Origin: Candidatus Omnitrophota bacterium
Lineage (GTDB): Bacteria; Omnitrophota; Gorgyraeia; Gygaellales; Profunditerraquicolaceae
DNA: 46,527 nt
Assembly: GCA_026387355.1 (NCBI GenBank)
Contig: JAPLLW010000017.1
Location: 1 to 46,527, forward strand
Reading direction: 5' to 3'
This document shows, piece after piece, positions 9,507 to 42,431 of this stretch. Position numbers and translations under genes: made by a program. The notes under the pieces are model-generated. The model saw only the letters and a program-made list of their open reading frames with translations. It ran no database searches and was not told where the DNA came from. Position 1 is the stretch's first letter; each line of letters starts with the position of its first letter.

Positions 9507-9810
9507 TTACTGCTTATTATTATATATGGGTGTTATTACCGGAGCAACCGGCATAGGCGGAGTTACTGGCATTGACGGCACAGGATTTTGATAATAATTA
9601 TCCGGTGCACGTATATTAAAATTGTAAGTACCGGGCCATGAACCTACGCTAGGCGTATAATACGGTTGCTCCCTATAGATTGAACCGCTAGGCAACATAT
9701 GTTCTTGAAAATTAAGATTCTGAGGCTTGTATATTTCAATTCTAGGCGCAGTTACAAGGGGAACCCTTGGTATTTCAATCTTTGGAATAGGCTGAAAACT
9801 TCCTTGATTT
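9507..9810 (-). other. Pro/Tyr/Ile-rich C-terminal tail
   Basis: IPKIEIPRVPLVTAPRIEIY, GSWPGTYNFNIRAP and VPSMPVTPPMPVAPVITPI form a low-complexity tail of about 100 residues ending at TAA. Confidence 0.8.
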
Positions 9811-12800
9811 AGGTAATAACTATTGGGTGCCCGAAATTGCTGCATATATTCAGTCGATACTGGCTTATCTAATCCTATTGAATGACTAATATAGTAATCT
9901 CTTGGTGCTTTTATACCAAATCCCTCTGTTGGATTAAACATCCATTGTGTAATATCTGGTTGAATAGTAACCATCTTATCTATCCGTTGATTAAAGGATA
10001 AACCGGGAAATACTTGCCGAACTGCATTGTTAATGAATTGGGGGTTTTTATGTCCAAAATGTACTTCAGAAAGCTGGAGAAGATATTTTCTGTGACTATC
10101 AAAAACAATTCTAGCTATATCTACAGCAGGTAACCCGGAAGCTGGACTAATTGACGACATTTGAAGCCAGGTTAAGGGGTCTACCGGATTAAAGAAACTC
10201 TTAGCACCCTTATCAATTTTTGAGAAATCAGCACCTGAGAAAGAATTTACTCCAATTATTTTAATTCTTCCAGCATGAATAGCTTCAGTTATCGGAGTAT
10301 TAACTTCGGGTTTAATATGCTCGAATAAACGTTCATTAACCATTTGCCCAGCACTATGTCCGATATTTAATACATTCCCATTACCAGCAAGCTTTAGGGC
10401 CATTAATTCTACTTGCTCGAATTTCTTCTGAACCTCTGGCATCTCCCAAATTCGGCCGCTCCATTTTACTTCCATAACTTCCATGTTTCCTAACTCTAGT
10501 ATCTGCCTAAGGCGCCAATTCTTCGAAGTCTCTTCTCCCGACCCCCTACCATAAGTCTTTGGGTCAAAATCATCTATACCTGGGGTTATCACTACAACTT
10601 TTATATTGGATAAAGCTTGATTAATTAACGGTTTTACTGGATCTATTGTTCGGGATTTAACAGTATTTAATGAAAAGGCTGCGATTTGACGAATCCATGG
10701 ATTAGAATCATTTTTTAAAATAGCAACTATTGGATCTACTAAAGCGGGGATACGATGTACTTTTACTCCTAAATTCTCTAAAGCTGCTTGCCTTACAAAC
10801 TCCGAAGGATCCTTTAATTTAGGTACTAATAAGTCCAAAACCTTTGGCGCATCCGCCCTTCCAAACGCCTCCACCACAGCCTGACGCACCTGCCAGCTAG
10901 TATCATTTAACAAAGGCTTAATATTCTCGATGAGGCTTGGTTGTTTAATAATCCTATCTGCTAATCCCGCAACCGCTGCATGTCGAACCACAGGCTCTGC
11001 ATCCCTTAATGCCGAAGTAAAAACTCCCTGCACCTCAGGCGAATCAATCTTTATTAAATCTAACAACGCCGCAGACCGTACTAATGGGTTAGCATCAAGC
11101 TGCGCTAATTTTCTTACCGGCTCGACCATCACCGGTGCTAATTGTTCGCGACCCAATACCTGAAGAGCAATAAACCTGGTCTGCCAAACCGGATCATTTA
11201 TTAAAAATGCCGCTTCCGGACCGATATTAATATTCCCGGCCTGTGCCAAATTAACGATTGCTGCTTGTCTTATGTAAGGATTCGGATTTTGTAAAAATGG
11301 CTTCGCCATCTCTAGGCCAAGTGGGCTATTGGCTTGTGCAAAAGCAGAAATAATTCCTATGCGCGTATTAAAATTTTTACTGTTCAATATTCTGTTTAGA
11401 GGCTTTTTTAGTTGCGGATAGGTATCTATATATTTTGAAAGGGAAACTGCTGCAGCCGAAGAAACTCTTGGTGAGTCATCTGAAATTCTATCTCTAATTT
11501 TGTTAAACAACCAGGGATTCTCCTTAACTTTATCACTGAGCACCACTACGGCTGTCTGTCTTATTTCTTCAGTATGATCATTCAACATATCGGCTATCCA
11601 TCTTATGCTATTTTCATCCAGGTTTTGCCCTAATGATAAGATTGCCGCTTGTTTTAATACTGAATATTCGCTACTAAGAAACTTCCTAACTTCTTTCTTT
11701 GCAATAGCTTGCTTACTTATCCCTAATGCATTAATGCAAGCTAATTTAACATTATTATCCTTCTCTTTATTCAATTGTTCAATAATTAAATTAGTTATTT
11801 TTGGTTCATTGTTTTGTCTTACCGAAAGCCCTGTTACAATCGTGATACGTACTGAAACATCATTATCATTTAACCCTTCTTTTAATTTATTAGTTGATTC
11901 CGGCTTATCAACCTGTGCTAAAATAGAAAATGCAGATCTACGCAAATTTACATCAAAATTATCCGCCTCTTTAATCACATACGGGAGAATTTTCTCGCCT
12001 TGAATTTGATATAGCGCAACCAAAGCTATAGGTTCAGCTTTTAAGAAACCAAGTTCTGAGAATATTTTTAATCTATCCTTCTTAACTATTCTATATAAAT
12101 ATGGTACAGCCCGCTCGTCTCCAAGTAAACCCAGCACTACAATAGCTGTATTTTCTACCTCAGACACTGGATCATTTAAAGACTTAACAAATAAATCAAA
12201 CAATCTTTTGTCTTTAAAATTACTTAACCCGCGAATTGATGCTACGCGCACTTCTTTATCCGAATCAGAAGAACCTTTGATAAGCGCATCGAGTGCTTCT
12301 TTTCCCTCAAATCTACTCAACAAATAAGCAGCATAAGCTCGAGTTCCGGGATCATTGTTTAACCTATCGTTTAACATAACCCTCAAAATATCTGTTACTG
12401 TAGGCTCACCGAGTTGTGCCAGAATTAAAGCTGCTTGCATTTTATAAGACTGAACTTCTTCTTTTGCTGTCATATCTCCTTGATGGCTTCTGTTAAGATA
12501 TTTTATATATATATCTTTACCTCTTGAGTCCCCCAACATAATAAACGCATTTGCAGCATAAAAAGATAAATGAACATCATCACTTTTGGCCATTGCCGCA
12601 TAACTTTCAAATAACTCTTCCTGTGTCGCCCCTAATGATTTAAGAAAAGCTGATAGCTCGAGTATAGGTTGATCGTCTTGGCCAAAGCCAGGCCTTAGAT
12701 ACTCTTGAACCAACGCAGTTCTAGTTTCCTTGGTAATCTTGGATCTATTAGCAAACGACTCGGGAATTTCTGCGGACTCCCTTGCGAAAACATAGAAATC

Positions 12801-15800
12801 ATATGCTAAGCTATAGTTATAAAGTGCTCCTGTATAGTTATTTCGATTTAAACATTCTTGTGCCTTTGCAATTTTTTGAAATGTCTCAGTTTCTGCTTGC
12901 ACCAACCATCTTACTGTAACACAACCATTAAGCATAAAGACTGTTAACGTCAACAAAAGTACAGTAAATAAATTACGTACCTTATTAATCCAATCCACAG
13001 GGGACACCTTGCGCTTTGACGCAAAGGGTGTCTCTGCTTTGACGCGAAGGGTATCCCCTAGGGCCTTAATCGCCATGGCCTTGCGCAAGAATCTGTCAAA
13101 ACAAAAACGAATAATTCTTCTAAGAAACCCCGGCGGGCCGTGGTGTAATACGGACTCGCAATATTGCGCCAAGGCTCCGTCATTCCAAGGGACAGCTTTC
13201 GGTAATCCCCTTATCCCCGTAATAAGATCATTTATGATTACGCCATCAATACTTGCAAATATCATGCCTCCAAGGCGGCGCATAGTAAATTCCTTTTCTT
13301 TATCCCTTATTATTCTCACGCCGCGATCTCCAAATATCTCGCAGATTAAATCTATCTCCTCAGAGGAGGCGGCATTAAAAGCGCATTCAATTACGTTAAT
13401 TTTGTTTTCCCTGATCACTTTTGCGATGTATTGAATATTCGGCGTAAGAAAATTCGGCAAATCAACAACAGGCGAAGTATGAAAAACCCCGTAAACATAA
13501 GTGCCATTCTCTCTCCTGCCCCTAAAGACACATCCGGTACAAACCTCCAATTCGTCGGTGAATAAAACTTCACCTCCCCTTAAATTATCGGTCATAACAA
13601 GCTCATCCTGCGTAGCTCCGATATAAGTAACATTTTTATCTTCGTAGAAACGTGAGCGGATGTCCCCCGCAAGATTAAATGCTCTTTTCTTTGAGGTATC
13701 ATAGAAACTGAAGCGTTTAGCTATTTGCTCAAACCGCGGTAATCCCGTAAAGTGCATCCAAGGATAGCCCAATGCGATGACGCGCTTTAGGCTCTCCATG
13801 CGCTGCGCCAAAACAGGGTCAGGATCATTTCTAGGCACCATAATGGGGTCTGACCCCGTTTTCTCCGTTTTAATGGGGTCTGACCCCGTTTTCTTTGTTA
13901 TGGGCTTATAAGTATGTATGCTACTCCTCAAGATCGGAAGCGCTGCGGCGTCGGACTTCCCGCCAGAGAAAAGTTTCTTACTGGGAAGCGGCTGCCTGAA
14001 TATACTGTAAAATACATAAATTAACGTCCAGAATGCTCCTATGCCTGCACCCATACACAGCGCGCTGTAATAAACAGGAACCGCAAAGATAGCGCTTGTC
14101 ATCTGAATCATCGCGAATGTAGACATCTCTCCACCGCTTGCTTTTTTTGCAGCTAGCAACATAGTACTAATCGGCTCAGGAAAACCGTGTTTTAATATTA
14201 CCTCATCTCTTTCTGCTTTTGTCATATCCGAAGTAATACGATGCCGCACTGATGTAAGGAACATGATAAAAGGAAGGGATAAATATAAAATGATAACAGT
14301 GTCCATCAACCACTTGGCGAAGATAGGATCGAAACGGAATCTGCCTAAAGGAAAAACCTTCCCCTCTTTCGACTTTCTGATCAAATACCCGGATACCTTC
14401 ATGTAAATGAATAAAGGTGTGACCAACCCTACGGTAAAAAAGAAAGGAACTACTAACTTATAAGAAATAAACTTCAGGAAATGGAAAAATTCCGTTAGCG
14501 CCGGCATAAAAGGCTCAATAATAGCTTTACAGAGATAGATCGCCTGCCAGAAGAGATCCGCGATCAGATGAAAGATTTCAAATTGCATCAACCACTGGAT
14601 AAAATGCAGGTTCCTTAAGAATTCATAGATCGGCATATAAATATCCTGCAGGATGACGAGGAATGGCATCATAAAAACGAGCGGCTGGATTGTCATCCAT
14701 AAACCCATCAACGGCCGCAGGAACTTAACCATGCGCAGCCACTTCAATAGCCCGCCGGAAGAAAACGCCTTAACTTCCTTCTGCGAGAACGGCGCTTCCT
14801 CATATCCTGCTCTCGGGATCTTCCCTTCGTATTTAAGCCTCCGGGCCTTGATCTTTAAAACATTAGCGTAAGCAACGCCACCGGGATGAGACTGAAATAT
14901 GCATAAATCCCCTCCCCCTATCAACCCTATAATTATCCAAAGATCAATGGGACTTAGCTTGCGCAACTCTTTAACCCGCAGAATCCCACGGTAGAATTTC
15001 TTCTTCAGCCGCAACTGCGCTTCCGCAAGTTCTTTATTCACGCCAAAATGATATTCTCTATTGTTCCACTCGAATTTCTGATGGTAGAAATAATATTTAA
15101 GGAATTCTGACAGCGCCAAAGCCGCAACCTCATCGTGCAGGTAACGCTGAAGACCGATAAAAAGCTGATTCTTTGCAAAACGCACGACGTTCTGCATTAC
15201 AATTTCTTTTTGTATAAAATTTATACTTATTCTTCCCTCCTGCCCTTTTGCCAATTCCTTGCGCACAAGATTAACCATCATGCTGACTGCCGGCTCGTTG
15301 TAACCTGCAAGTATTTTCAGAATCCTCTCCACCCGTTCATCCTCGGAATAGGTTACAATCGGGTTAACTTTGGTATTCCTACCAAAGATTCGCTTCGCCT
15401 GGAATATTAAATAAAGTAAGAGGACAATCGGGTTAAGAAGAGCGATGTGATCTATCGCAAAGTATACTCCCCTCCATAGCGCAATCCCGAAGCGCTTTGA
15501 TAACTTAAGCATATTAGAAGAACCGGAATTTCCGTCGCTTACCATCCCCACGGTCATCGCGGCGAGGAGGAGGCCGGCTAAGGCATAAGATAAATACATG
15601 AACACTGCCAAGACAGAAACAATCATGGCTAAGGCTAAGACAATAAGAATATACGCCCTTGCTTTGGAGGTTGTGAATTTCTCAACCGCCTTATGGCCAA
15701 TATGAACACAATCGGTTGTCTCACCGGAGAAATACGTCCTCACCATCTCGCCGATACCAGCAAGAACTAGCAGACCGGTGAATATCTCTCCCAGATAATT

Positions 15801-18800
15801 CGGAAATACAATAAGCCCTAAAATAGCAGCGATTACTGTTATGACAAGCTTATACAGAAGATCCCAGTCATGGGCAGTCCATATTGTTTTCTGATAATGG
15901 ATCGGTGTTTGTATTCTTGGGCCGGCGGATGTAAATAGATCGCGTATTATCTCAAACACAAGCGTAACGAACCGCCAGCCAAAGGAGTGCGTTTTAAAAT
16001 CAACCTTGTTTTTATTTTCTAAAACCTCTCTCCAATTATTTAACTTCGAACCAGCGGCCTTATCCTGTATTTTATAATTACCTTGATTATCCTGGATAAG
16101 TTTACGTGCAATACCGACGATGGAAAGCGCATCCTGCCGGCTAAGCTCATTCCTGAATATTTTCTCAAGCTCAAGATTCATGCTATGAGGCAGCCCGAAG
16201 CCCGCGCCGACCTCATGTATTAACGCACCCTTACGCGCAGTTTCACCCAGGTAAACAATCAAGCGGCCACCCTCTCTAGTATAAATCCTATCGCAGTGTC
16301 CGCCGAATTTAAAAGGTGTATGAAGCTCATTAACAAAGATTACCTCGATAGGATTCTTAAGTGGAGAATCCCAATCATAGAGGCTTGTTCTCAACCATAA
16401 AACCTCACTGCCATGTTTCTGGCGTAATTCTTTATAACGCGGATGCCCGACCTCGATCTTGCCGCATTCATCAATAGCCCGATGCACAAACCATTCGGCA
16501 ACCCAACCCGGAACCCAACCAAACCACCAGGGGCTATTTAGAAAATGATCTGCTGCGACCAGCTGGTTAAGAAAGCCAAGATTTATCTTCTCAGGGAGTG
16601 CCTGGCGCATAATCTCTATTGCCCTCGGAGTACTTATTCCTTTAGCTGCCATAACAAAACTCAAGTTCTTTTCATGTGATGTTCCTTCAAGCAATGCTAA
16701 TGAAGCATCGCGCCAAAGAAAAGAATTAGGATGATAATGCCTCCCCTTACCATAAATAACTTTTCCTTCGGCAAGCGGCATAACCACAACACCTTCTGAA
16801 GTCCACTTTCTTACTTCCGGCTCAATCTCAGGAGGCACACCTTCAGGAAAAGCATCTATAAGCCAACCATCGGGAATCTCTCCCACTTCGGTCCAGGTTT
16901 GGAATAAATCATCGCTCCAAACCGGGCTTGCTCCGTCGATGGCAAGGCTAACTATAAATTCCATACCATTACACAAATGCTTATTCATGGGATTGCCGAC
17001 CGCGAGAACCCATTTACGTACCCTGCTGGCAATATCTACTAACCTCTGCCTATCGTATGACTCAATACCTAAAACCGGGAAAGTTCTACCGGTTATCGTA
17101 GCGCACATCCCCAATATCGGTAACGCAAGGAGCACCGGCCAGCCGAAGACGATGAATCCTAAACCGATTAACAGCACCAGAGATGCTTTTTGCGCCACCT
17201 CCAAAACCGATGTCGCTTGCCCCGCATCTTTCAAATATTCCAGATATTCATCATAGTAATATATCTTAACCCTGCCCAATTCTACCGGCTTCTCGCCATA
17301 GCTCATACAAGCAGGCATCCTATATATAATCCCTTCCCTTACTCCGCAGCCTTCAGTATGCGGCCCGCGCTCACGAAGGCGATGGACTTTCCCGTCAATA
17401 GCTAAAACTGTTCCGAACTTCTGCTTACTCCCATCCTTCCCTAATGGATTAAAACGCCGTACTATCCCATCGAATTCCTTGACTAAACCGTAGTCGGATA
17501 TATCTTCTCCATAATGGGTGTTTGCTACTCTAAAAAGACGGCCTTCCCTTACTTCAAAACCAAATCTATAAGGCGTAGGACAACAAAGCTCATATAACTC
17601 CCCATCAGTAGTCATTACTTTGCCTTCGGATTTATTTATACCACCATATCTGTCGACAATAGATACTGACCGCGTTAATTCCTCATCAACATCATTCCTA
17701 TCCTTACTTCCAGACTCAGCTTTTTGGATTAATAGTTCGTGCAGAAAATGTTTCCTTAAATTCGCCTCGAAGATATATCTTTTGCTTCCGCCTTGCGATA
17801 GTTTAGTTAATTCAAGCTGCAACCTGATATTCTCTTCAAACAATAATTGATAAGCGGAACCGCGATATTGAGCAATAATATCCTTTTTAAATTTAGTGAT
17901 ATCCATTCCAAAACTGGCATCCATAACCGAATCGTCTTCGATTAGGATATCCTCGCTCCCAGGCAGAAATATTTCATTAGTTTCTCCGTCTATCGCAATC
18001 AGGTCTCCTTCCCTGATAATAAATTCACCGATATGTAAAGTCCGGCGGCTTAAGTCAGCTACGGACCCTTGAACACTAATAATTGCCGGTATTCCTGCCG
18101 CGCGGCAAAGGGCTGCTTCATGCGATGAGCTCCCGCCATAGGTAGTCATCAACCCTACCCGCTGGATAGAGTATATATCCGAGATTATCTCCTCCCGGGT
18201 TTCCGGAACGGTAATCAAAACAACGGGGCCGCGGGAAGCATAAGACATCGCTGTTTTCATATCAAAAGCTAATCTCCCGCACATGCTCCCGGGTATAGAA
18301 ACAAGCCCCCTGCCGACAACAGCTCTTCTTACACCTGCTTTTATTTTAAACATTTTCCTTTCGGCCAGCCTTTCCTGAAGCTCGAGCAGCTTAAGAGGAA
18401 AACGCAACTCGTTTGAATTATTTTCATTTGCTCTATCTTTTTCATATCTAAGCTGACCTTGAGGTGAAAATTTGATATCTCTGGTTTGCAAAAAGTATAA
18501 TAAGCCGTCTTCTACCACAAATTCAATTTCTTGCGGGTAGCCCGCCGCCTTTTCCAGTCTATCCGCTGCATCGCAAAGTTCTCTGTAAGCCGCGGGGAAT
18601 CCAACCTGCATGCCTTCAATAGGCAATCCCGGCACCTTGCCCGAAACAATATCTTCGTTTCTTGTCCTTACCGCAAAATTTCCGCGCATTAACTTTTCTC
18701 CTGTGTCGGGATCTCGACAGAAGATTACACCGGAACACGAATTATCATTCTTATCCCCGAGCACCATTCTCATAACTATCTGCGCAAAACCTGAATCATA

Positions 18801-21800
18801 AGGAATACCGAAATTCTTGCGGTATTTGTACGCCCTTGAAGTATCCCAACTTTTATTTACTTCATTCAATGCCTGAAATAACCCGCCCCGATTATGATCA
18901 TCATCAAAAAATTCCACCATTGTGGCTGTTTTAAGTACCCCAGGCATAGAAAATTCTGGGCTGCTTCTGACGGATAACATCAGAGGTCCGGCTTCTGATC
19001 CGCTATCTTTCTTTTGATCGATGAAATCCTCTTTCTTAAGAATGCTGATCCAGCCTGCGTCATCAAAATAGGCCTTTTCTCCCGAAGGCAAGATAAACCC
19101 CCGGGGGAATCTTAAGTTCAGAACACCGAATATAATAAAACCCCAGGCCTTGTTTCCGATAACCTTGACTGACTCACGAGTTCCGAGGGGGATAAGGAGC
19201 TTCCTTAAACTAACGCTCGTTTCCATCATCCCCAATATCGGCAGCGCAAAGAATGCCTTCCAGCTGAAGACGGCCAAACCTAACGCGATTAACAATAACG
19301 GGGCCGCTTTCTGCACGGTTTCCAAAACGGTATACAGTTTGGATGGCGCGGCGGCGGGCGAGCTAGCGCCTCTTACACACTCAACAGTATTGTAGAATCT
19401 AGCCACCCCCCTCGTTATAAGCAGACTACAAGCATAAGCGCCTAAAAGAACTTCCGGTTGCGAAAGACGGAACCTCTGAATTCCGTCTTTTGCAATAGAT
19501 GAATTATTGGCAGAACGTACTGGATGCGGCAAATTGAATATATCAAAAAAGAAGAGCCTTTTTACTTGCGGGTATTCTCCAAGATATCTAAATTTATCTG
19601 GAGACGACTCCTCATTACAAACAGGAGCTCCCTGGACACTAGCAGGATACTCGCCTGCTATGCTTAAAATATCCACTCTTTTTGCAGGCATATTTCGCTG
19701 GATAATAAATTGCAGAAACAGCGGGAATTCAAATGTTGCATCCTCTACGATTAGGAGCTTACTATCTTCTCTTAAGCCATCAAGACAACCGGAAACTATA
19801 AGTTGTCGATACATACTTTCCGACCATTCTCTAAAATAAGCGTCTTCTGATAAAAGCCTGGAATAGAATTCATGGAACTGCTGCGTATAATGCTTAAAAT
19901 CCCTTGAGTCTACTCTTATATCCCTTTCTTCGTTAAGCATTAAATTCCATATTCTATTCGGGACATTAACGTTCCGAGACATGGTAAATAAACGCATCTT
20001 GCTGTCAAAATCTGAATCGTTAACCAAAAGAGACCGGTAATATACTGCTTCATAAAGATGAGACATACCGGCAGCAAGGTAAATAATACGATCGCAGCCC
20101 TTTTCGTTTGCATATTCCAGAATTGCTTCATTAACACCTGGAAAATAATCACCACAAATTTCTATATCGTACCAATTTATGCGTCTACCGGAGTTATTAA
20201 GGAAAAATCTGTCAATTTTATTTCCTTTAAAAGCGCTGATTAATCTTCCGGCAAAAGATTTAAATCTTTCTCTTTCATAAAAATTCAAACTTGCAGAAAT
20301 TTCTTTTACCCTATTGACCATCATCTTTAAGAGCCCTATGTCATCGGCTTCAGCTAGCTGTCTAAGCGTTGACAAGTTAAAAGTTTGGTAAAGTCGATGT
20401 AGGGAGCGCGAGGTAATTTCAACGGCCGCCGGTGAGCTGACGCGATCTTTCATCATCCCCAGCAGCGGCAGCACCAAGAGCGCCTTAAAACCTAATATAG
20501 GTAAAAGAGCAAAGAAAACAGTACAAAGTAATACCTTTTTTATATCAGGCGAGCCAGTGCGGCTTAAAAGCATCTTGACCGCGTCACGAATAATACCCCT
20601 ACGAATATTCTTCTTCATAACCGCTTCCCCAATACTTTTAGCCAATACGAATCGGTTCACCTTGCCTAAGAATTTCTTGTCAAACTTCATCTTGTCCATA
20701 ATCCCGCCTAAAGTCAGTCCCCGGACAGTTTCCGGAAAACCGAGCGCGGTCAACAGACGGTTCAAACGCTCTGCGTCCTTACGCTTCATGAATATCTTCG
20801 CTGCCGCGCGCATGCCGAACGCAACGCATGTCCCGTGGTCATACTTATAGAAACATGCCGCCTCGATCGCATGACCTATGGTATGGCCGAAGTTAAGAAT
20901 ATCCCGCAGCCCCCTCCTTCCTAGCTCGTCCAGAGAAACATAATAAGCTTTGATAGCCGCACAACGTTTCACAAGCCATATCAGCGCATGCGCATCGCCC
21001 TGCAAAAGAGCCAGCCGATTATTCTCGATAAAAGTGAAAAGTTCTTCGTCACAAATAACCCCGTACTTAACCGCCTCAGCTAAACCGCTTCGAAGCAGAG
21101 GCTCGGGAAGTTTCGACAAAAACGCCGTATCAATCAGGACCAACCTGGGCTGATAGAATAACCCGAGATTATTCTTTATCCTCCGGAAATTCACTGCGAC
21201 TTTACCACCGATAGAAGCATCAATCTGCGCCAGAAGTGTGGTCGGCACTTGGATCAAAGGCAGGCCCCGATTGATGTGCGCGGCCACGTACCCCGCCAGA
21301 TCACCAATCATCCCTCCACCCAGCGCGACGACAAATATATTTTTATTCTCTTTCTCTGCGTAGCTCATGAGCTCGCCGTAAAGATGATCCGCCCACTTTT
21401 TAGACTTACTGGTCTCACGGTCCGGAACCTCAAAAAACTTGATTGTGAACCCGGCAGCGCGCAAAACAGATTCAATTTCTGCCCCGAATAAACGTTTCAC
21501 CAACGGATTCGTGATTATGGCTGCGGCAAAATGCTTGGGGTCTGCAATCTTGGCCTTATGAATCAAGAATGACAAATCCTTAAAAATGCCCTTACCGATA
21601 ACAATGGGATAAGATCTTTCTCCAAGCTCCACCATAATCGTTTTAGCTGGTAACGCGGCGAATAATGAACCAGCGTTGTTTTTTTGCAACCATGCTACCG
21701 GCTTATCTTTAATTGACTTAGCAATTTCAAAAATCCTCGCAAAGCAGGATATGCTTATAGAAGTGCTCTTAGAGTTATCCCTGCTATCCGGAGGCCCATT

Positions 21801-24800
21801 CAAAATAGGGGCTTTTCGATTAATTCCCTTTAATCTATTTTTGGCTAACATAACAAACTCATAAATCCACTCATAACAAGTTCTGCAAACATGGTATTTC
21901 TTACGGTAATCACTATTATTCAAAGGCCCCCATAAGATAGCTCCATACGTACTAAACTCTTTAGCACAAAAACTACACTTAGGACTAATCATTCCCAATA
22001 TCGGTAACACAAGAAGCATCTTCCAGCCGAATAAAAACAAACCGGCAACAAGAAACATGCTTAATAAACCGAAATTTTCACCAATGACCTTAATAATTCC
22101 TTCGGGAGTAAATTTAAAATAATTTAAAAGGTCGCTTATTGAACCTGATGCCCCATATTCAAAGCCATGACCTTTTAAGCGTATTAACTTTTTGCTGCCA
22201 TGCTCCAAAATTGCTTTTGCTACTAGCGACTCTAGAATCACCGGATTTCCGTTATACAATGTCAATACCGGTACACCCTCGTCTAGCAAATCAACAAAAC
22301 CAGCATCGAGATTCTTAGGATTTGAGATAGCGATAACCTTTGCGCGCCTGCCTTGCTTCTCTAAAAGTTTACTGGTTTCAATTGCCTGGCTAACAAAGAA
22401 TCCGCTCCCAACAAAAATTACATCGGGCCTTGGCTTTACTGCGACCGGATCATAGACTAAATTATATCCCTTGATTACATCATATCCGCTAGGCCTTACT
22501 ATCGCTGGAACCGGCACAATATTTGTCCTTATGTAGACGGGCCCGCGCGGCTCAGAGAGCGCCCAGTTAAGGCAATCAAATAAATCGCGCTCATCAGCCG
22601 GTTCAAGATAGGTTATATTTGCCATAGTCGCAATCAGCCCAGGTTGACCGGTTGATTGATGAGTTGGCCCATTAAACAAACCGCAGATTCCGGCATCGCA
22701 AGTAATAAATATCACATTACTCTTTCCTTGCGCGCATACGTGGATCTGATCAGCTGCGCGGTATAAAAATTCATCTCCGATAAACACAACTACGCGCGCC
22801 TGCGGATCAGTGACAGAAATACCATGTGCTGCGGCAATCATATGCTGCTCTTTTAAACCCACATCCATGTACGATCCTAAGCTCTTAAGCGTATCGGTAC
22901 TAATTCTAAATGAAGGCAGAAAATCAGCAGCAAGTGAGTGGATTTTAAATGGCGCTCCCTCAGACTCAAATTTTGCGGCAAGAGCCTTGAAATAATCAGG
23001 TAGAGTTTTAACCATGTTATCGTATTGTTTGCCTTCAACCTGAATTGCTACTGGATAAATAGATTTAGAATGATACGAAGTATCTGCTACAGGAATAATC
23101 TTTTCTTGAGCTTTCTGAATAAACGCAGGCATATCAACAACGCCAAAACGCTCCTGCTCCTTATCCTGTATTAAAATTAAATCATCCCAATTATATCCTG
23201 TTTTTACAAGCTCTCGTCCGCTATGAACGCCTGTTCTATGGCTTTCGATTCCCGGGATACCCTTTCCTTTAACCGTATTAGCAATAATCAAGGTGGGTTT
23301 TCCTTCGCAATAAGCTGACCTATGAGCCTCTAATACCTGGCGCATGTCGTTACCGTCGGTAATCTCTATAACGTACCAACCATATCCCTCCCATATTTTT
23401 CTTATGTCAACCGCGCTTTCAACGCAAATAGTAGCGTGGCTCAATTGCTTTGTATTTTTATCAATAACAACCACCAAGTTATCCAGCCTCTCATGAGACG
23501 CATGGCGGGCTGCTTCTGAAACATTCCCTTCCTGCTCCTCTCCATCCCCTAGATGAACATAAACCTTGTACGGCCTTCCTTCAACTTTAGCAAGATGCGC
23601 ACATCCCACTCCATAAGAAAGGAGCATACCTAAAGAACCGCTCGGCGTAATATCAACTCCCGGAATAAAATGGTAGTCTTCATGACCAGGTAATAATGTC
23701 TTGTGTTTGCGGTAAGTAAACAAGCGCTCGGCTGGGAAAAATCCGGCAAGCGAAAGAAGCGGATAACGTATCGGACCCATGTGCCCTCTTATTAAAACCC
23801 TATCGCGATTAGGATGCACTGGGTTCTTCGGATCGTAACGCAAAATACCTCCGAAATAAAGAGCGGTGAGTAATTCAACACTTGAGAGCGGCCCGCCTAA
23901 ATGCCCGGATTTTGATTCTTTAAGTATTTTATATATCCATTTACGCGCTTCGCAGGCTAAGTATTGCAAAGATCTAATCCCTTCTTCATTTTCCTGCCGT
24001 AAAAATTCTTTTTTACCCTCCAGAAAACCGCGTACAACTTGTTTTTCCTCAGTAAACGGCTCCTGGCCTTTATAGCGCACTTTCTTGCTTGCTGCCGCGT
24101 CAATATACATTGCAGCCAGCATAAGCAGAATATTTTCATCATTATCACCAAACTCTTCTTTTATTCTACGATATGCTTGAACCAATTTTTCTTTATCACC
24201 AAGATTCTTTCTAAAAATATTTCCAATCCCGTGAAGCCTAATGATCGTACTTAGCGGCTCGGAAATCTTTCCTGCCAACATTGCCACAGAATGTTCTTCA
24301 TGCCCCTTCCATTCACCGCCCAATTCAAACTTACCTATATCATGTAAGAATATAAAATCCCTTAATAGCCACTGCCTGCGTATAGCAATCTCTCTTAAAT
24401 CCACAGGCACCTTCGTATCACGTCCATCAATAACCTTTAAAAGACATTCAAACATAAAACGCAGATGGTCATTTAGAATCGGACCTTCAGCGTGTGATCT
24501 GAAAATCTGAGTGGTATTTAAAATCTCACGTGCCAGTCCATATTTAGCCAAACATAACCAGCAAAAATACTTATATCTGTCAAAATTAAGCCCATGGCCC
24601 GTAAGATATGACTTAGATATAGTAACCGGAAGCTTGCCTTGTGGCTGTAGTAGCCCAAAAATAATTTTACCCGCCGCTTCTATCGAGTGTCGGGAAGGAC
24701 TATAAGTAGCCAGGAATGCCGCGGTTTCGGGAAATTCTAATAAATCAAACGGCGCGCCTAAAGCTACAACGACAAATTGCTTCTTGTCTTTGTATTTATC

Positions 24801-27800: not shown

Positions 27801-30800
27801 ATCTCCTACGCCGGCAATAAATTCCTCCTCGATGCCACATACTTCATTCAGATATTTTATAGCCCTTCCCTTATTTACGTTAGCCAGATTCACATCAATG
27901 GTACGCAGGCTTGAGTAAGCAGTACAATCAGCATTAAGCTCTTCCTTTACTATCAGGATAACCGCTCTTCTCAACTCCTCCTTTTCTTGCGCCGTAAGAA
28001 CAGGAAGCTTAATAGAAAGTGAATAACCTGATTCCCGCTTTTCCCAGAAATCAACTTTATCCGGATAAGCTTTTTTAAGTTTAGCAAATATCCGCTGCTG
28101 GGCATCTAAATTAAATATAGGCTCTCCTGCAGGATACTCATTTATTTCAGGTTGATTTGCCCGAACTACATAGGCACCACCCTCAGGAATAAAAATCAGG
28201 AAATTAAGAAGCTCTTCCGATAGGCCTCTTCGCCTAATCTCTTCTTGAATAGTCAGCAGAATACTGAAGAGATCGCGCGAGCCTGGGCCCTTCTCAGTCT
28301 CTGAAAGCTTAAAACGACGACCAGAGGTAATGCAGACATATCTTTCTTCTGCCAGAATATCAACCAGCATCCCTACAATATCCGAAGGAATTATGCGGCT
28401 TATATCAGTCAACACACAATCAACATCAAAAATAAATGCGTCATAAATATTCTTTAAAGCAGACAATAATTTACTTCCTTCTATTTTATGCCGCCTCAAT
28501 GCGCTAGCGTAATAAGCTGCGCCAAGAGCGCTTGAAAAAGAAGTATTGTTCGCTACGCTCAAGACTATATTTCTGGTCTGTGGATAGACGGCAAGAGAAT
28601 TTCTCGCGGATTTTAATAATTCAGCCCCGAATTTACCTTTTATCGGGCCTCCGGAAACAAAAGCCTGCTCAATAGGCCAGTAATTGCAAAGTTCGATGAC
28701 CGCTTCTGCTAAATACCTACCCATAGTGTTTGCTATTGCCTTGGACTTCATTCTTTCCTTATTACTCTTATCTTCAATCTCGCAATTCATCACAATATCT
28801 CGAACCACATCCCTAATTTCAGATCCAGAGAACTTTCGTTTACGATCCCAGAGATGAGTTATACCTAATTGTGTGAAATAATAACCCAGCGCTCCCGGCG
28901 TGCCATTTTGTACACCATTGCCCTTAGAACTAATATCCACACGAAGATAATGCTGTTCTTTGCGGCCTGGCGCAGCCTTTCCGTCTGGACCGGAAAATCC
29001 GAAAGCTACACTTGAGCCTAAGCCAAGATAGGCAAGATTTCCTTTTCCGGTAGTGTGCACACCGTAAAATGTTCCGGCGACCCCATCATTGCACACCGTG
29101 AAAGCGCAATCCGCGCCAAACTGGGATTCCACCCATTTCTTAAGCTTACCCGGAATCTGCTCAATCTTTTTACCTTCAGTCTCACCGTATAAATTCCTCA
29201 GCCAGCTCCCGAATACTAGCCTATCTTTTTTAACTACTGTATTCCAAGAAATGCCTACGCCATTAATTTCTTCTATTCCTAGATTGTCCTTAATATACTT
29301 ACGCGTTTCTATTATTGCTTTCGTTAAAGCTTCGAAATACTCGGATTCCCTGGCCATTGAATATGCTCCGGGTGTGTTTTCACCGATACAAACCTCTTCG
29401 CTGTTAACCACTGCTGATTTCTTGATACTTCCGCCGCCTAAATCAATACCTATATAAGTACCGCGCTTCGAACACTTCAAAGCGGATAGTTCATTGTTAG
29501 GACTACTTGGCCGGATAACCGGTGGAGAAATATCTGATTCAGTAAATTGAACTTCAACCCTCTCGGCTCCAAAGTGCTCCTTTAGTCCGTCGATGATTTT
29601 ATCGTAATATGCATAGTCTGTGCATGACTTCTTTAACGGAGTAATCCAATCAGACGATGCCTTAATCACTACCTTAGGCCCGGCATTGTTAAGCAGTGAA
29701 TTAAAAACCCGAGCCATGACATAATCTGCGAGAGCTTCTCTCTCAAATGGAATATTCTTTGACAATTTTATGGAGAAATCATTAGAGGCGTCCACTCGCT
29801 CGCTCTCCGGAAAACTAACCTCTATAACATCAAGTTCACCATCAGCATAGTTTTTCTCATGGATGTTTCGCAGACCGCCGATTGCATACTTTATTTCATT
29901 ACGCTTAAAGATAAGGCCTTGAATAGTCTTAAATAAACCTTCTTTGGTATTAATAGAATTTAGGGCCAATTTTTCCTTAATCCAATTAGCTAGCAAGCTA
30001 CGCAGATTAAACGGCAAATGTTTGGTTTTTACGACAATGGCCTCATGAATATCCTTTCCGTCTACCGATGGCTTTACTCCGAGCTTAAAATCTATCCTCC
30101 CTACAATCGGACTTAAGCAACGATGCGCATATTGGACAAGGCTTATGCGTGAAATACGCATTCTAGCAATTGATCCGCTTTCTGCATCCCACCACCCCTG
30201 CATTAATTTACCGAGCTCTCTTTTTAATTCTTCTTTCTTGTCTTTAAAGAATGCTAAATCTTTTGCAAAAGCAAGGGCCACATGAGCCTTATCATCCATA
30301 TCATGATCCCTTATCTCAAAACCAGCTTCTTCACAAAGCCTTTTTCTTAATAAACTCAGTGTCTGCCAAGAACTTTTATTAAGCGAGCGGCCGATAAATA
30401 TAATCTCTCCGGAATCATTAAAGGTTATCCCATCGATTTTTACTTCAAAAGGCTTGGTTTCTACGATTATACTAGGTATGACCCCAAGATTTGCAGGAGC
30501 CGGAGAATCAATCGATTCTCCCGGAGCAGTATAATCTCCTCCGCGCACTGCACCGACTGTAATATGCATATGATCCGGAGTGTAAACAGTAACCATCTTA
30601 TCACCTAAGATTTCTTTAATTTTAGCGGTAACTTTTATAGCTTTATCGATAAAGTCCGCTCCGCCTTCTTCTTCTGCAAAAGAAGCGCCCATTACCATTG
30701 TCGGTCCATACACCAAAAGACCGCGCTCATTTTTCAACACGCAGTTTTCAAATTTATCAGGAACAAGTTCTACAAACTTAAGGTCGGGTTGGCTTTTTAC

Positions 30801-33800
30801 TACAGCTTTGTAAACATCCTGTATCATCCCCAGAATCGGCAAAACAATAAGTATCTTGAAGCCGAATATAGGTAAGAGACAAAGGAATGCAATGCTTAGC
30901 AACACTCTAGCAGGCCCCGACGCGGCGAGAACCTTCTTAATCGTAGGCGTTGCCGTTTCTATCTTGAGCGCTACATGGGTTCCGTTGATGCGTTTACCCA
31001 CACTTTTCACTTCCTTTGTGCGTACGTCAAAGCTTTGCCCACGCGAGTATATCTGCATGGAGGACTTAAAAACACCTGCTGATTCACTTTCAATACGATT
31101 CAGCTGTCGGGGCATGATACCTGAAATAGCATGGTCGGTCCTTGTTGCGCGGCCCGATGCTCTGTACTTCGTAATATCAAATCCTATACCACCGTCAATA
31201 ATGTGCACCTCATAACTAGCCCTACCATCATCGGATATAGTCTTACGCCATAGCGTAATAGATCGACAATCTTTTGACGCTATCCCATGACAAGCGCGTT
31301 GGTGATGATTTTCATATGCATAATACAATATAGACCATATGCGATTATATCCGACACCTGCAGCTTTAAATAAATTATAAAACTTCACCCCCTTAGCCGT
31401 ATTATAAATGATATGCTCGCGAGCATACGCCCATCCCTGTTTACTTAAGTTTCTCAAAATCACTGCTACCTTATCATTATCTTTTTTTATTAACGCCTCT
31501 CTTAAATCTTCCAAAATACCAAAATCTCCATCAGCTTTAGCTGCAGCCAACGAACTGACGCGGTCTTTCATCATCCCCAATAACGGCAGCGCAAAGAGCG
31601 CCTTCCAGCCAAATATAGGCAAGAGAATTAAGAAAAGTAAAAGAGAAGCCGCATTTGCTATTGTGCTATTCGAGAACGCTGCGATGGCAGGAGAGTTTAC
31701 GTAAAGCTTGCTTGCAGCATCTAATGAGGCTATGAATAACTGTGCTACGGCAATCGGCGTCTCTTTAGAAATTTCAATATTCGAGAATTGCGGAAGCCCG
31801 CGGGTATCCGGATTACTTTCAGTCACTCCAGAATCAACCTTAAACTGAATACACACTTTAAATAAGCTACCATTTGCCAGATGATCAGCGATAATTTCTC
31901 CCAAGGCATGACGCCTTAAATGCTGATCAATGACATTACCGAAATACTGCAACACGCCTTTTGCATCTATTACCGCATTCACATAGGCCAACCCGCCTTT
32001 GACAGTCTCACTGCTCCAAGCCTTGGCGAAAGAGCGCGTGAGATCTGCGCTAGGCACATCTTCTTTTCTAGGCCTCTCTCGATTCAAAAGCATTTTGACA
32101 TTAGCAGCGACTATATCCGGATCAATTTTACTCACGCGCGCATCTGGAAAATTAAAAGAACTTTTCAGCTCACATCTTTCGGGAAGATAATTTCCATCAC
32201 CGCGCCTTACGATGTAATAAACACTTTCAGGTGTTACTCTCGCAATAATAATCGAATGCTGTGAATTCCTTAACCAATCCCCTGCTTCAAGAATTAAAGG
32301 ATTGGCTGCGCGAATCGGCTGCGGCGCAACAGGATGTAAATTCATGGCCTCAAGGTACATCGCCTCGTGCTTTGCGATCAATTTCTCGGGATCATAGTTA
32401 GCAAGTGCGTAGTTACGTCCACTCCTACCCATTCTTCTTCTATCAAGAGGCGCCATATCTATCACTCTCTTGATTGCGCGGCTCAATCCATCTATGCGCT
32501 TATTAAAATCATCATCCCATTGAACCAAAAATCCTGTCTCTTCTGATTTTATAGATTGCCTAATATTATCTATATCGTAAGCAACTACCGGTAGCTCCAT
32601 AAGCGATGCCTCAACCGGAACCAACCCAAATCCTTCGTGATGACTCGGAAACGCCACGACATCGGATACGCCATAAAATAATCTCAGCATCTCCTGGTCA
32701 ACCGCCGGACAAAATTCTATAATATCCTGTAGCCCCAGAGTCTCAACATACTCTTTGAGGTGATCAGCGAACATTTCATTACCGGTAAAAACCTGGCCTA
32801 CAAATATGACTTTGATCTTACGATTGTATAATATTTTTAGAAGGCTGCGACTCCAGGAATGAGTACGCATGAATTTCTCAAATCTTCCTATTTTCATCGC
32901 GTCATGAACAGCAAAGATAAGTTCATCCCCGCCCTTTCCGGGAGCAATTCTATTAGGCACAAGTAAAACAAAATCATCACTAACTAATTTAAGGCCAAAT
33001 TTACGATTAAGCTTTTCTCTTGCATCATATACCTCACCACCCCTCAAGGGCCGGAGTAATTCAGAATTAATCATCGGGCCAACCGTCTCCACCCTACCCT
33101 CAAACACTTTTTTAACAGCTTCCATGACATGATCGCTTACTGTCAATACGATCGTATTTTTCCCAGCGCTTAAAGCCTGCAACATATTTTCATGGTATTT
33201 TCCATTAGAAGAATCGTTGGGTTTATAATGCTGATAAACAAGGAACGGCAAAGAATTATCTGCGGCAAACTTTGCGGTAACTGCGCCCGCCTCCCAGCCA
33301 AGATTTTGATGTATAACCAGGTTTATCTTGTATTGTTTATTTACCTTTTCTAAATCTTCGACGAGCGTTTTATCAGGGCTGGATTCTATAAGAATAATCT
33401 TATTGTTCCCAATATTAATAACGAGCTGAGGTATTTTATGCTCGCCCGTATAATGGCTAGCATTATAAATGACTATCTGAGTAAGATTATCATTACGCAT
33501 AGCCAGCATTTTTAATAGAGCGGTTAAATAGGTGCTCGTTCCTTCCTTTTCCGCGACACCTCCGCCATATACAGTCAATATAGTCTTGTTATCTAATATA
33601 TGCACTAGATGAACTGGGCCATTTTGTTTTGTCTTGGCTAAATCAGCAACATATTTTTCCATCCACGGGTCTATAGGCTTACTCGCAATTCCGACAATTT
33701 CATCGGGCGGCGCGGCGGGGGGAGACGAACTGACTCCTGCTTTCTGCAACGAAGTAAGGAACGCCTCGGTGCGGGCGATCCTCTCCTCATAAGAAGGGTA

Positions 33801-36800
33801 ACCATAGAATAATTTGAATATTTGGCTAAACGCCTGTCCCAAGGCTCCGCGATCTTCAGCTCTCTCCTTCCGGACAGATTCCTTCCAGTACGCGATACTA
33901 CCCTGCGGGTCATACCCTGCAGCCTGAGCAAACTCTACGCCCAACGCATCACACCGGAGTTCCCTTTGTATCTTGCGGGTTCTACAGAGAAGCAGGATAA
34001 TGAACGCCCCGAGAGAAATTAACCCTGTGACTAAGAGATCCGAAGCTAAAATATAAAGAGAAAGCATAATCGACGGTACCCACATAACGCCTGAGCCCGT
34101 GCGAGGATCTAAATCATGGAAGAAGTCAAACTTCATGATTCCGACTCGAGCACCCAAAGCTACGTTTGAAAGATACGGTTTACCTTTTATATATGTCCCC
34201 TTACGTAAAACCGCGTGAGCAGTCTCGTGCCCTAATAATCCGGCGATAACGTTATCGGAATAAGCCAGCAATTCCTCGCCCGCCATAAGGCAAACTCCGG
34301 GAAAACCTCTGTCATTGGTATTCCCGATAGCTCCCGCATCATATGTGGGATGGACCATGACGAACCAACGCGCATTGCGCAAGAATGGATATTTAACTGC
34401 GGCCGCGCTAAGAATCTTTCTGACGATCTCCCGGATACGCAGCTCATCCGTACGCTGGGCTTCCCATTCAAACGAAATATTTTGCATCGCGTCTAACTTA
34501 GTAAACATGCGCTCACAAAACTTTTTAAAGATAAAGGTCCAGATGAGAATCATTACTGCGGAGGAAATCTTGCAGAAAAGTATAGTGCTAATCCACGCAG
34601 GCGGCCCGTGAACCAGAATTGAAGCTAAAAATGCACTGAGCCCACCGCAGGATAAAATAACAGGCATCAAGACGAAGCCGCCATCTGAGCCGGGCTTAAG
34701 TAACTTTCCCGGCGCGGCGGCAGGCGAGCCGGAAACCTTTAATGCCGGAATGATACTGTTTATCTTGGCTAAGATTTTATCGTCCGGCTGCCACTTGCTA
34801 AGGATATTATTTCCGCATATGTCTACTGCCCATCGAGGAGTTTCAAATAGTCCGGTAAGAAGTAAAATATTGTAGCCTCTTTCAAGTTTTGCCCACCTAA
34901 GAAAACTTTCCGCGCTCCTACTTACTGGTGCGAGAGGAACGAATGCTTCAGTAATAATTAAACCTATGCCATTCCCATCTTTTTCCAATTCTAAAATCTT
35001 CTCTCTTGCCTGCTCCAGGGTCTGGGCTTCAACAACTTCGAAACCATTGTGGCGAAGCATATTTACAAACGGAACGCTCCATCCGTAATAAGGTTCTACT
35101 AAAAGTATACACGGCTTTGATAGTTGGATCGCGGGGGATTTTCCATTAGAGGCCTTACCGATTGCGCTAATACTGGCAAAACCAATGATGGAGGCGGCAC
35201 GTAAAAGTTGCGGAAGGTTGAAGCTCCCTCCTGTTAAGCTCACAAGTACCTCCTCCATCGTTGGCCCGGAAGCAGCAAGCGGCGCAAATTGAGAAACATC
35301 ATAGTCAGTCATGCGCATCAACTTGAAATTCAACAGCCAGCTCAACACAAATAGGCCTGCAGCAAGCGCAAGCATAGCCATATTTTTAACCGTCAGGACA
35401 CTTACTCCGTTAAGGCTAATTAAAGAAATGCCCTGCTCATACCAAAGCCACCCTGCCCATAAAGACATTACCGCAATACCAACGATATAGCCTACGACCG
35501 TAAGCACAATGGGTAAATAAGCGAGTGTTTGCGAATTATTAATTTCTTTCGCATATTTAAAAAGTTTTCGCCAGAATATATTCAATAGCCCCAAGGCGAG
35601 CCCTGCGCCAATGCCAATCCAGACATAAGCATTAAATCCGCCCTGTGAAAGTATTATCGGCAATACCCCACCTATGGAAATGGCTAAAGCAGAGATTATT
35701 TTCGTTCCCCAGCCCCGCCTTTCATTTAACCAAAAATAGGCAAGCGGCAGGCTGACAAAAATACCCAACTGATTAAAAGATAACATTAAAGTAGGGTGTA
35801 TGTGCGGCAGGATGGAGTAGATGAAACAGGAAACAACAGGCATAAGCAGGGCAGGAATCCAGATATAAAGCTGATTTTTACCTTTAATAGATTTGAGCAC
35901 GTCCCAAAAAACAGAGAAGCCATTTTTACTAAAATTATTATTTTTAATCAAGATAATAACGAGAAAAACAGTTCCGGCAAGCACCAAATCAAAAACGAAA
36001 ACCCAGAAACTAGATTGCACCGGCAAGAGGCTATGTTTTATAACGTTCATGAAAAATATCCCGACGGCTCCGGAAAGAGTAGCAGTGATGACTAACCAAA
36101 AACGATTGCGCTCAAGCCATGATGATATATTATTTAATACGTTCGAGAGAGTTAATGGGGCGGGCGAGCTGGTGCTATCCACTATCCCCACCGTAGCTAC
36201 GGCGAGGAGTAGGCCAATAATTGCAAACAGAATTGGCGGGGCGTGGGCAAAAACCGTAGCTAAAAATGCGGCGAGGCCACCACAGGATAAAATAATAGGT
36301 ATAAAGGCGAAACCACCTCTTAAACCAGGCTTAGGTAATTTTGCCGGCGCGGCGGCGGAGCGGGTGCGAGTTATTACCGGCAAGCTGACCCAAACAGTTG
36401 TTCCCTGGGTTAAACGTAGAGGAGCAAGAACATCTGTCGACGATAATCCTTGGTTAAACTCGGCATATTTTCCATCTACCGTAATTGAACCAACGCGCAA
36501 AGACCCGCCAAGCATATTCACCATTTCTGAGACCTCAGGCCAACCGATAGAAACTCTTCCCTGCTCATTTGTTTTAATGGTAATAAGCTCCGGCCTGCCT
36601 GATGCAGATATCACAAATTGTCCGTGCGGCATACCAGCTCCGTCGTCGCTTACGGTAATTTCAAAATTTTCGCTCCTGATCACAAATCCAACACCCTGCA
36701 TCGCCTTCCCTCCGTGAAGCAAAGCATTATTGAAGATATTATTTATCAGTGAAAATGCCCAGGTAAGCGGCATATTGAGAGTGATATTCTCCACATCCCC

Positions 36801-39800
36801 GGTGATCGTAATGGCGGGCGGATTATTCTCATGGCGCATGCGAAGCAAGGCTATGACTTCATTCAAAGAACATTCACCCCTGCGGCGGGCAACCGAAACA
36901 AAACCGCGCCGCTCACTGACAAAGCGCGCATGCAAAGCGCTTGCCTGCTTCAGATAAACCAAACGTGCCTCTTCCTTCAATCTCGGCTCATCAGTCAGAC
37001 CCGCTATCTTTTCTTCGACTCCCTTAAGCGCAGATTCAGATAAACGCATTTTATGGAATGCGCGCATCGCCCGGTCAAGGCGCATAAAATAGAATAAAGC
37101 CATATCGTAATGAGTAATCTGAGGAGCGAATGGCTTGAAAATCATTAATTTTGTGGCGTATTTCTTTAGCTGTTCGTATAAACGGTGGATGTTTTGAATT
37201 TCTTTTGAAGCGGCGCCATATTCATATCCCGCTACTTTTTCAAGCACATATGCGCTTATCTCAAAGTTTGCCAGCGTCTGCAAAAGGTCGAGCTTGCCGG
37301 TATGTGAAGAGGCATGGTCGAATCCGCGGTATCCGATATAGACCCTGCGGAAGCAGGTTTCCCGCCATTGGACATAGGCATGCGGAATAATAATAAAAGC
37401 AACGGTTAAAATAACCATAGTGGAATAGATCGGCAGGATGCAATCGAGCTCTATCGACACTAATTCAAGGACCGAACCGATACAATCGCGGGTTACAAGA
37501 AGACAAATAGTAAACCAACTTATATAAATCTTTTCAGGAGAAATAATCGAAAGCCATTTTGCTTTCGAGGATTTTCCTGTGGCAGATAGACGATGAAGAA
37601 GATGCCAAAACATAAGCATCAATAGAATAACCATTACTGGCGGCGAGAGCGCCTGCGGCATGGCAAAAATCAGGGAGAAAACTACACTTAATCCGTAAAC
37701 GCCTATTAGTGATTCAAAGCCTACTGGCCTGATTATACGGCTGTCTTTATAATATTGCAGCATCCACGGAAACATAGCTTGCTTGGTTGCCGCTGATTCT
37801 ATGGTAGTTTTCATATCAACCTCAAAGGTCCCCATCAGTCTCGTGCCACTAGGTATATTAAGAGTGCTAAGGTCTTCCCGCTTCAATAATCTACTCCTCA
37901 CAACACCAGTGGCGGACTTTTGATAATATGTGCCCCTGCGCCGGGCATTGTTGCCCGCAGAAATTTCGATTAAATCAAGCCGGGTAGTTGCAACATTAAT
38001 TATATGCAGGCCTAACCCCATATTTTCCGGATAACCCGTTGTTGTAACTCCGGGTTTTACAGCTATTGAAACCGGAAGAGGCTTTCTGTTCCTTTCCAAA
38101 AATCCCCGGCCACGGTCAAGGACAACAAATACACATTCTGTTTTACCCTCGCCTGCCGGCCTGAAATACATCAACATCACACTGAAAACGCCGCCATGAT
38201 CATCAACATTCTTCAACGATTCTTCAATAACGGCAAACGCTTTATCCGCGTCTTCGATGGGCAGCGAACGAAAATATTCCCTTGCCTTGGCAGTAATATC
38301 ATTTGCTCGCCCCGAAGCACCCCAAAAATAACCCGCAGGATTAATCCTATGATTCCAATAATGAGCATCGTCCAAGAGCCGCTGTGCATCCGGTTTTGTA
38401 AGGACCGACCAGAGCTGGTTAATAAAATCCCAATTCTGTGGAGTTATGGGCAGGAGTTCTTCGCTTTCTGTAGCGCTTGTAACCCTAGGGGACACCCTTT
38501 GCTCGCATAAGGGGATCCTCTGAGAAATGGGGTCAGAATTAATTCTGACCCCATTTCTAGAGACGTCTCTATTTTGGGCGCGGCGGATAAGGCGCTGTTC
38601 AGTTCTTAAAAGCCTCCTCTTCCACCATTCTAATTGAGATTTTACGAGCTTTAAATTCTGATTTAAGCTGCGCAGAAGCGGCGCTCGTTTTAAAGCACCA
38701 ACTATGCGATTAACTTTAAGTTTATTAATTTCTTCTCGCAAATCTTCAAATTGCTGCTGACGTCGCTTGATTATTTTCTCTAAGCGTACCTCATGTGTAA
38801 TATCTTTTGTCATTGGAGAACGCTTAAACAACTGTTCGAGCAAACTTATATGGGTCGCGTAAAGTCGTTTTGTTAAAGTTGATTCTTTTTTAGTGGAAGC
38901 ACTATGGAATATGCCGATTATGTTCCCCAGCTCATCGATAACCGGACCACCGCTTCTTCCTTTAGCCATAGGATGCACATCTGTATCTATTCTTATTGCT
39001 GTGGAATTCGATAGAAGGCGCGCTCGTCCTTTAGCTACCTGCAATTCTGTACTACCAGCCGGCATCCCTAAAAAGCAGGCCTTTACAGCTTTTCCACCGG
39101 GCTTAAGCGTGTTCTGGAAAGGATTAATTTTAAGCGTCTTAAGCGCTTTTTTCACATCGCTTTTCTTAACGCGCACAAAACCTAAATCTATACCTTCCTG
39201 CGCAAATATCATCGCATCGACTTTCTGCCCGCGTAAATAATTCGTTTCTCCTGGGAAAACTACGCTAATCTTCTTGCCTCCTATCGGGACCTCATCCAAA
39301 ACATGGCCAGCTGTGGCAAAATAATAATAACGCTTATCCTCAGCGAATAGAAAACCTGACCCGGTGTTAATGTCAGCGTATATCCGCACAAAAGCCCCGA
39401 GTATTTGCTTCCAACGCGCCTGACTAATCTTAGTAAAAGGTATTTCCGGTAGGATTATCCCCAACAGCGGTAGAACAAAAAGCATCTTCCAGCCGAAGAT
39501 AGGTAAGAAGCTTAAGAAAAGCATAAGAGAAACTATTTTTGCTACTGTGCTTTTAGAGGCTGCATCCGCGGTGATGGTTGCCGCAAATCTTCTTGCCCTA
39601 GCAATCCTCGGTGTAAAATCCGGCATAGCAAATAGTTGCTCCTGAATCCAATGTTTAATTCTGAATAAAATTCCAAACTCAAATATCTTGTTATCAATTT
39701 CATCCTTGAAATCTGTCAATAAATCAGGGAATTTAGTAATTTCATATCCCGCGTCACTGGCAAATTTCATCCCTAGACGGTCGCATTCAAGCTCTTCAAA

Positions 39801-42431: not shown

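Follow-up and report, generated by a model that had tools for sequence, protein, structure and literature searches.

Giant genes of the Omnitrophota are among the largest predicted genes known. The LiM protein of Velamenicoccus archaeovorus is a giant Omnitrophota protein of 39,678 aa (Seymour et al. 2023, PMC10066038), whose peptides were three-fold higher in attached cells and for which an extracellular coat has been proposed (PMC10066038). The published giant ORFs of the phylum (PMC10066038) resemble the locus described here in more than phylum and size class, since both have many predicted membrane segments, poorly conserved bodies and Tad genes in the same genomes. However, the published giants are described as having few annotated domains and an adhesion or surface role (PMC10066038), while the locus described here is dense with enzyme modules and genome-specific repeated linkers, and a c-di-GMP-I riboswitch sits on its conserved C39 head.

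The structure of this gene also has partial analogues in unrelated systems. The AROM pentafunctional polypeptide and the NRPS and PKS megasynthases likewise carry many enzymes per chain, but they serve one pathway, while the modules here come from unrelated pathways. Viral-type polyproteins share the long chain, the internal proteases and the membrane spacers, but here the gene is bacterial and far larger, and cleavage is only putative. Giant Omnitrophota ORFs were already known; what appears to be new is the enzyme-linker anatomy and the riboswitch-C39 head, neither of which was found in the literature searched, a body of work that excluded bioRxiv and most subscription papers. An enzyme chain of this kind challenges the view of giant bacterial proteins as mainly adhesins, cell-wall enzymes or megasynthases.

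A giant reading frame and its amber codon

The window is the whole stretch of DNA analysed, the first 46,527 nucleotides of contig JAPLLW010000017.1 (C17; 105,423 b) in assembly GCA_026387355.1 of a tiny, uncultured Candidatus Omnitrophota bacterium, and every gene, module, linker and regulatory element placed in it below lies on the reverse strand. Of the giant Omnitrophota reading frame that the assembly contains, it covers the downstream third, and behind this lie the riboswitch and head that open a second giant gene. The first-pass annotation had reported an unbroken frame of 10,974 codons at 9507-42431, and this is confirmed: the ORF has a TTG start, encodes 10,974 aa and contains zero internal stops where one would be expected per ~16 codons at the observed base composition (log10 P(open) = -313), and GC1 exceeds GC2 across all of its 500-codon windows, as in coding sequence. 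Its assignment to an Omnitrophota giant gene is likewise borne out, both by named relatives with the head described below and by giant frames in relatives. What does not stand is the claim of one polypeptide of 10,974 aa as a unit, because its start falls inside a domain that is continuous in three relatives (G076, G088 and G089).

This number of codons represents a part and not the whole, because the 5' boundary of the ORF is one in-frame TAG (42441-42443) and the frame is open upstream. The upstream ORF, whose C-terminal end occupies 42444-46526, continues in the same frame for at least 20,993 codons and is still open at the end of the contig; a 28-N scaffold gap lies in this region, just outside the window edge. 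Upstream and reported frames together come to at least 31,970 codons, one amber codon included, and, with the TAG inside a domain continuous in three relatives, the window would therefore hold part of a gene of at least that length. Against a giant-gene threshold of >20 kb, the reported ORF alone spans 32.9 kb, and at least 95.9 kb with the upstream part. A 158-aa membrane protein (9029-9505) is encoded after the giant ORF.

The giant gene is very probably real and translated. That it might be an artefact of assembly or binning is suggested by the metagenome-type assembly and the one scaffold gap at the window edge, but is barely credible, given that assembly errors make stops instead of removing them and that the same head stands on giant frames in unrelated assemblies. 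Circularity of the contig, which would join the ORF at 1-7260 to the upstream ORF, is not supported: the contig ends do not overlap, and a second head is found on contig C15.

The TAG is the single in-frame stop inside its conserved domain (42288-43442). In the alignment with G076, ILASKDRTI*EPALVAMVEMI is matched to ILASTDRTVYEPCFVAMVELI as one domain without a break, and the G076 codon at the TAG position is TAT (Tyr). An alternative genetic code or amber readthrough is unlikely, since no CTA-anticodon tRNA occurs among the 44 tRNAs found in the genome and TAG also terminates other ORFs of this genome. The TAG is most likely to be a point mutation, an error of the consensus sequence or the mark of a recent break; if real, it would cut the chain. 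Alternatively, the upstream and reported ORFs could be two separate genes, with true initiation at the TTG (42431). In favour are a Shine-Dalgarno-like match, TAGGAG, 7 nt ahead of this TTG and the use of TAG as the stop codon at the ends of other ORFs in the genome. However, a single domain, which aligns unbroken to all three relatives, takes in both the TAG and the ~60 codons that begin the reported ORF, and a new start at this position counts against two genes because it would yield half a domain; we consider this alternative doubtful.

Modules of the chain

Module calls for the reported ORF are Pfam matches above cut-offs, unless noted otherwise. From its 5' end, the ORF encodes a glucosamine-6-P isomerase/6-phosphogluconolactonase-like (NagB/6PGL) module (41313-42095), a PAS domain (40893-41225), an M48-like peptidase module (a; HEVAH; 39564-40316), which self-comparison relates to a second such module further on, and a trypsin-like peptidase (Trypsin_2; 38910-39365). 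These are followed by a GHKL ATPase (HATPase_c; 36375-36755), the second M48 peptidase module (b; HETAH; 33771-34442), a family-4 glycosyltransferase (GT4; 32343-33407), a weak HAD/sucrose-phosphate phosphatase-like match (27795-28112; NCBIfam SPP subfamily, E 2e-4), a nucleotidyltransferase/GlnD-like module (26718-27404) and a glycoside hydrolase of family 3 (GH3) with its N and C domains (24609-26159). Further downstream are a transketolase with all three domains (N/pyr/C; 22083-23993), a 3-dehydroquinate synthase (20604-21611), for which DHQ_synthase and DHQS_C are far above cut-off, a pyruvate phosphate dikinase-like module (PPDK_N/PEP-utilizers; 17964-19004) from which the PEP-binding barrel is absent, and, near the C-terminus, HEAT repeats (10632-12344). 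An internal lipoprotein-signal-like segment (LTVFMLNGC; 12897-12974) stands just before the HEAT repeats and looks like the relic of a lipoprotein gene that became fused into the frame.

The upstream ORF adds radical SAM, PPDK/PEP-utilizers, a 2Fe-2S/NuoF set, two SLOG, UDPGP, M50 and M54 modules, along with protein kinase, glutamate dehydrogenase-like, Rce1, GNAT, PALP and sigma-70 modules. NRPS/PKS adenylation, carrier or ketosynthase domains were absent from the Pfam scans. Giant genes of the phylum reportedly carry a divergent SecA DEAD domain, according to a preprint; no SecA is present in the assembled part of this chain, and the one SecA of the genome is a separate frame of 976 codons.

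These matches support the first-pass description of a mixed metabolic, signalling and proteolytic chain, although the 'at least twenty modules' that it counted are reached only if unannotated segments are included. Among the enzymes that it named, transketolase, 3-dehydroquinate synthase and GH3 are upheld and the HAD phosphatase is weak, but a ROK kinase and an EamA transporter had no family match at E <= 0.01. Three features had escaped it: the repeated linkers, the stretch at 1-7548 with a riboswitch and conserved head, and the status of the enzymes as diverged extra copies. Free-standing genes elsewhere in the genome encode a dehydroquinate synthase (C29) and a transketolase (C36) that are 47% and 42% identical to the respective modules. 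The dehydroquinate synthase module matches solved enzymes along its length, falls narrowly short of the NCBIfam aroB equivalog cut-off of 305 with 302.5 bits, and retains 62/68 columns that are invariant among 16 free-standing relatives, with which it shares 41-46% identity. The transketolase module aligns to solved transketolases across all domains, and its N domain retains 65 of the 102 invariant columns of the free-standing group. Judging from these comparisons, the enzyme modules are diverged extra copies of which at least some have been under constraint until recently.

One further domain, HExGA (HE-[FLV]-GA-xxGL-xH-xxN), is repeated along the chain, at about aa 1459, 6927 and 12159 of the upstream ORF and at 16134-16319 of the window. 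Within the order, its profile finds mostly giant or contig-limited frames, including frames of 39,957, 35,009, 16,498 and 11,118 codons; the domain seems to be lineage-specific, is found mainly in giant open frames and may be a zinc peptidase. The closed 35,009-codon frame of G096, of which ~10,000 residues were scanned, contains HMGL-like, APH, MoxR-type AAA, VWA, GGDEF, MalK-type ABC and patatin modules, and module content varies between genera. The first-pass annotation had suggested looking for stops between the modules in a second genome; run in part, this comparison found the relatives' own giant frames unbroken, up to the 57,756 codons of the largest frame behind a head, but made of other modules.

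Linkers between the modules

In the body of the chain, enzyme, kinase, protease and HEAT modules follow one another, and short, repeated, genome-specific hydrophobic linkers connect them where domains end. The commoner linker is a hydrophobic element of ~35 aa with the core LLPIFGWKALFALPLLGMM, of which 13 copies are present, all in the two giant ORFs (upstream and reported) and absent elsewhere in the genome; none was found in the 57 relatives searched. One copy lies in the window's portion of the upstream ORF (45987-46106). In the reported ORF they occur at 39453-39563, starting at the end of M48 module a, at 31569-31679 and 30810-30932, at 21987-22076, 6 aa past the transketolase, at 20439-20549, ~20 aa past the dehydroquinate synthase, and at 19209-19331 and 17094-17216. 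A second type (AAAPAKLPKPG...ILSCGGLAAFLA) is present in two copies (36165-36356 and 34524-34682). The reported ORF thus has nine linkers, counting both types; not one of them overlaps a domain, against 3.9 expected (P = 0.006), and four begin 4-23 aa past a domain end. An unannotated segment between linkers (30933-31568) gave a predicted fold, made without an alignment, with pLDDT 38, too low for use.

The linkers look conserved as protein, because pN/pS between the 13 copies stands at 0.41 in the reading frame, compared with 0.66 and 1.64 in the two shifted ones. A mobile DNA element was considered and rejected, since the copies differ at synonymous sites (pS 0.65) and so are not recent. Their hydrophobic stretch of ~28 residues with one Lys is short for a classical transmembrane hairpin. 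A hydropathy scan of the giant ORFs gave multiple predicted transmembrane segments, and every giant examined has isolated hydrophobic segments, at roughly one per 1,000 aa. A genome of another genus, G073, carries a linker family of its own within a series of giant ORFs that encode enzymes of glycogen metabolism and a kinase; homology between its linkers and those described here was not detectable (hhalign probability 1.4%).

Lineage-specific linkers combined with varied modules, as also seen in G073, could also belong to a self-processed polyprotein, translated whole and then cut by its own proteases at the hydrophobic linkers into separate membrane-anchored enzymes. The chain has proteases of at least five families (M48 twice, trypsin-like, M50, M54 and Rce1-like) in addition to a C39 head, and its linkers, with their conserved core, sit at domain ends. 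However, the linkers lack the double-glycine motif cut by transporter C39 enzymes, the proteases could have other targets, and cleavage sites are not demonstrable from sequence, and we rate self-processing as unlikely.

A palindromic repeat, GGGGTCAGAATTAATTCTGACCCC, occurs at 7620-7730, 38529 and 45975 of the window and at C17:63735 and C17:72063, both between genes and in frame inside the giant ORFs, where it is read as NSDP[IF]; a REP-associated transposase-like gene is found on C15 near 22,566-23,312. In-frame copies of a repeat that is also intergenic are what might be expected of neutral accretion, in which fused genes and old intergenic repeats persist in a tolerated open frame and most modules are no longer useful. 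The partial PPDK, the relaxed transketolase N domain and the differences in modules from genus to genus could be read in the same way. It is nevertheless hard to explain neutrally how one frame stays free of stops over >31,000 codons, while the linkers and the dehydroquinate synthase are constrained and conservation of the head and riboswitch extends across the order; neutral accretion is therefore quite improbable.

The conserved head

The second giant gene (1-7260) runs off the contig after 2,420 codons. Its head (6472-7260) combines a signal or anchor helix with a C39-peptidase fold, detected by Pfam (C39, 35.7 bits) and by Foldseek (3b79, 6mpz and 3k8u). The fold is shared with the C39 domains of PCAT/ComA-type transporters (TM 0.74 to 6mpz, the PCAT1 peptidase), and Cys134 and His223 are invariant in 21/21 heads, but the head lacks transporter domains and is fused instead to an N-terminal anchor and a giant body. 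Peptidase activity is uncertain because the oxyanion-hole position looks different, with Trp where Gln is expected (judged by eye); the third, Asp position is variable.

The frames of G076, G096 and G130 start with the same head. Of 128 genomes from the order, 62 have it, and across the phylum it is present in 117 of 384, mostly once per genome. Many head-bearing frames are short, in part at least through truncation at contig ends. All named records with the head are Omnitrophota or Omnitrophica, except for one labelled just 'bacterium'.

In the same genome, a second giant head with its riboswitch lies in a Tad locus (C15:25948-41955). The frame behind it breaks at 409 codons beside a duplicated stretch and resumes in other frames, which indicates an assembly error or a damaged copy. 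The two heads (C17:7639-6703 and C15:25577-26517) share 94% DNA identity over the first 60 codons and ~59% beyond, a pattern such as recent copying or conversion of riboswitch and anchor would leave. The combined upstream and reported ORF has no head of its own on C17, and the joining contig is missing; our guess is that it begins with the C15 head.

The N-terminus of the head resembles an export signal (AVFLPEQVAQA), which is odd for enzymes that require cytosolic cofactors. It would suit export as a surface coat or a weapon of predation, along the lines put forward for Velamenicoccus, with the whole chain secreted and its enzymes acting on prey, and so would the nearby Tad genes, the GH3 module and the attachment-linked LiM peptides and proposed coat (PMC10066038). 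Yet transketolase, dehydroquinate synthase, PPDK, NuoF, sigma-70 and protein kinases require cytosolic substrates, as do the GGDEF and HMGL-like modules in G096, and the chain has few adhesin-like domains, making export an improbable role.

Probable regulation by cyclic di-GMP

Directly before the head is a c-di-GMP-I riboswitch (7431-7548; covariance model 59.5 bits, gathering cut-off 35), followed by an intrinsic terminator (7403-7445; dG -23.4) that overlaps the aptamer 3' end by 15 nt. The head is further preceded by two small genes with three PilZ domains, a c-di-GMP receptor family (7891-8948). Across several scans taken together, the riboswitch stands ahead of the head in 27/32 genomes, the exceptions being G030, G039, G040, G073 and G080, and it does so in 20/20 named MAG loci, from genomes partly shared with the set of 32. 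Only two c-di-GMP-I matches in this genome are above cut-off, each at a giant head (C17 and C15); a third, sub-threshold match scores 34.4 bits (G000:C29:211193-211264). A strong terminator follows the riboswitch in 17 of 22 loci, its 5' arm overlapping the last 14-26 nt of the aptamer, and from this overlap we infer an ON-switch arrangement.

In scoring above the gathering cut-off and in its predicted competition with a terminator, a usual expression platform, the element resembles other c-di-GMP-I riboswitches (RF01051, RF03167), but it differs from them in its target, a giant multi-enzyme gene, and in a near one-to-one association. The head-bearing genes are probably switched on by c-di-GMP. 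Conserved head and near-universal riboswitch together offer a sequence marker for giant genes, even in broken assemblies, a testable handle on the timing of their expression, and a possible link to contact with surfaces or prey. Tad pilus genes lie upstream of the heads in G076, G096 and G073 and on C15.

Possible working of the chain

Sequence alone does not decide between a tethered chain, a polyprotein, an export coat and neutral accretion. The reading we favour, to which we would give nearly an even chance, is a c-di-GMP-switched, membrane-tethered multi-enzyme chain. We propose that c-di-GMP rises on surface or prey contact, as the Tad pilus genes adjoining the giant heads may suggest, and that the ligand-bound aptamer would then block the overlapping terminator and allow the giant mRNA to be transcribed. 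The chain would be synthesised on the membrane behind its anchored C39 head, and each linker would dip into the membrane as an anchor. The outcome would be a membrane-tethered multi-enzyme array that keeps extra enzyme copies together; as the working form of the giant gene, such an array is plausible but tentative, and the chain could possibly be cut afterwards. More speculatively, and rather less probably, these loci might represent a new class of polyprotein system, with one or two loci per genome, turned on by c-di-GMP through a riboswitch, in which a C39 protease head leads extra metabolic and signalling enzymes on fast-diverging membrane linkers that are cut or tethered as a temporary set for the contact stage. 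The giant ORF on G096:C9, which itself sits behind a c-di-GMP riboswitch, includes a GGDEF diguanylate cyclase domain, and feedback is possible there.
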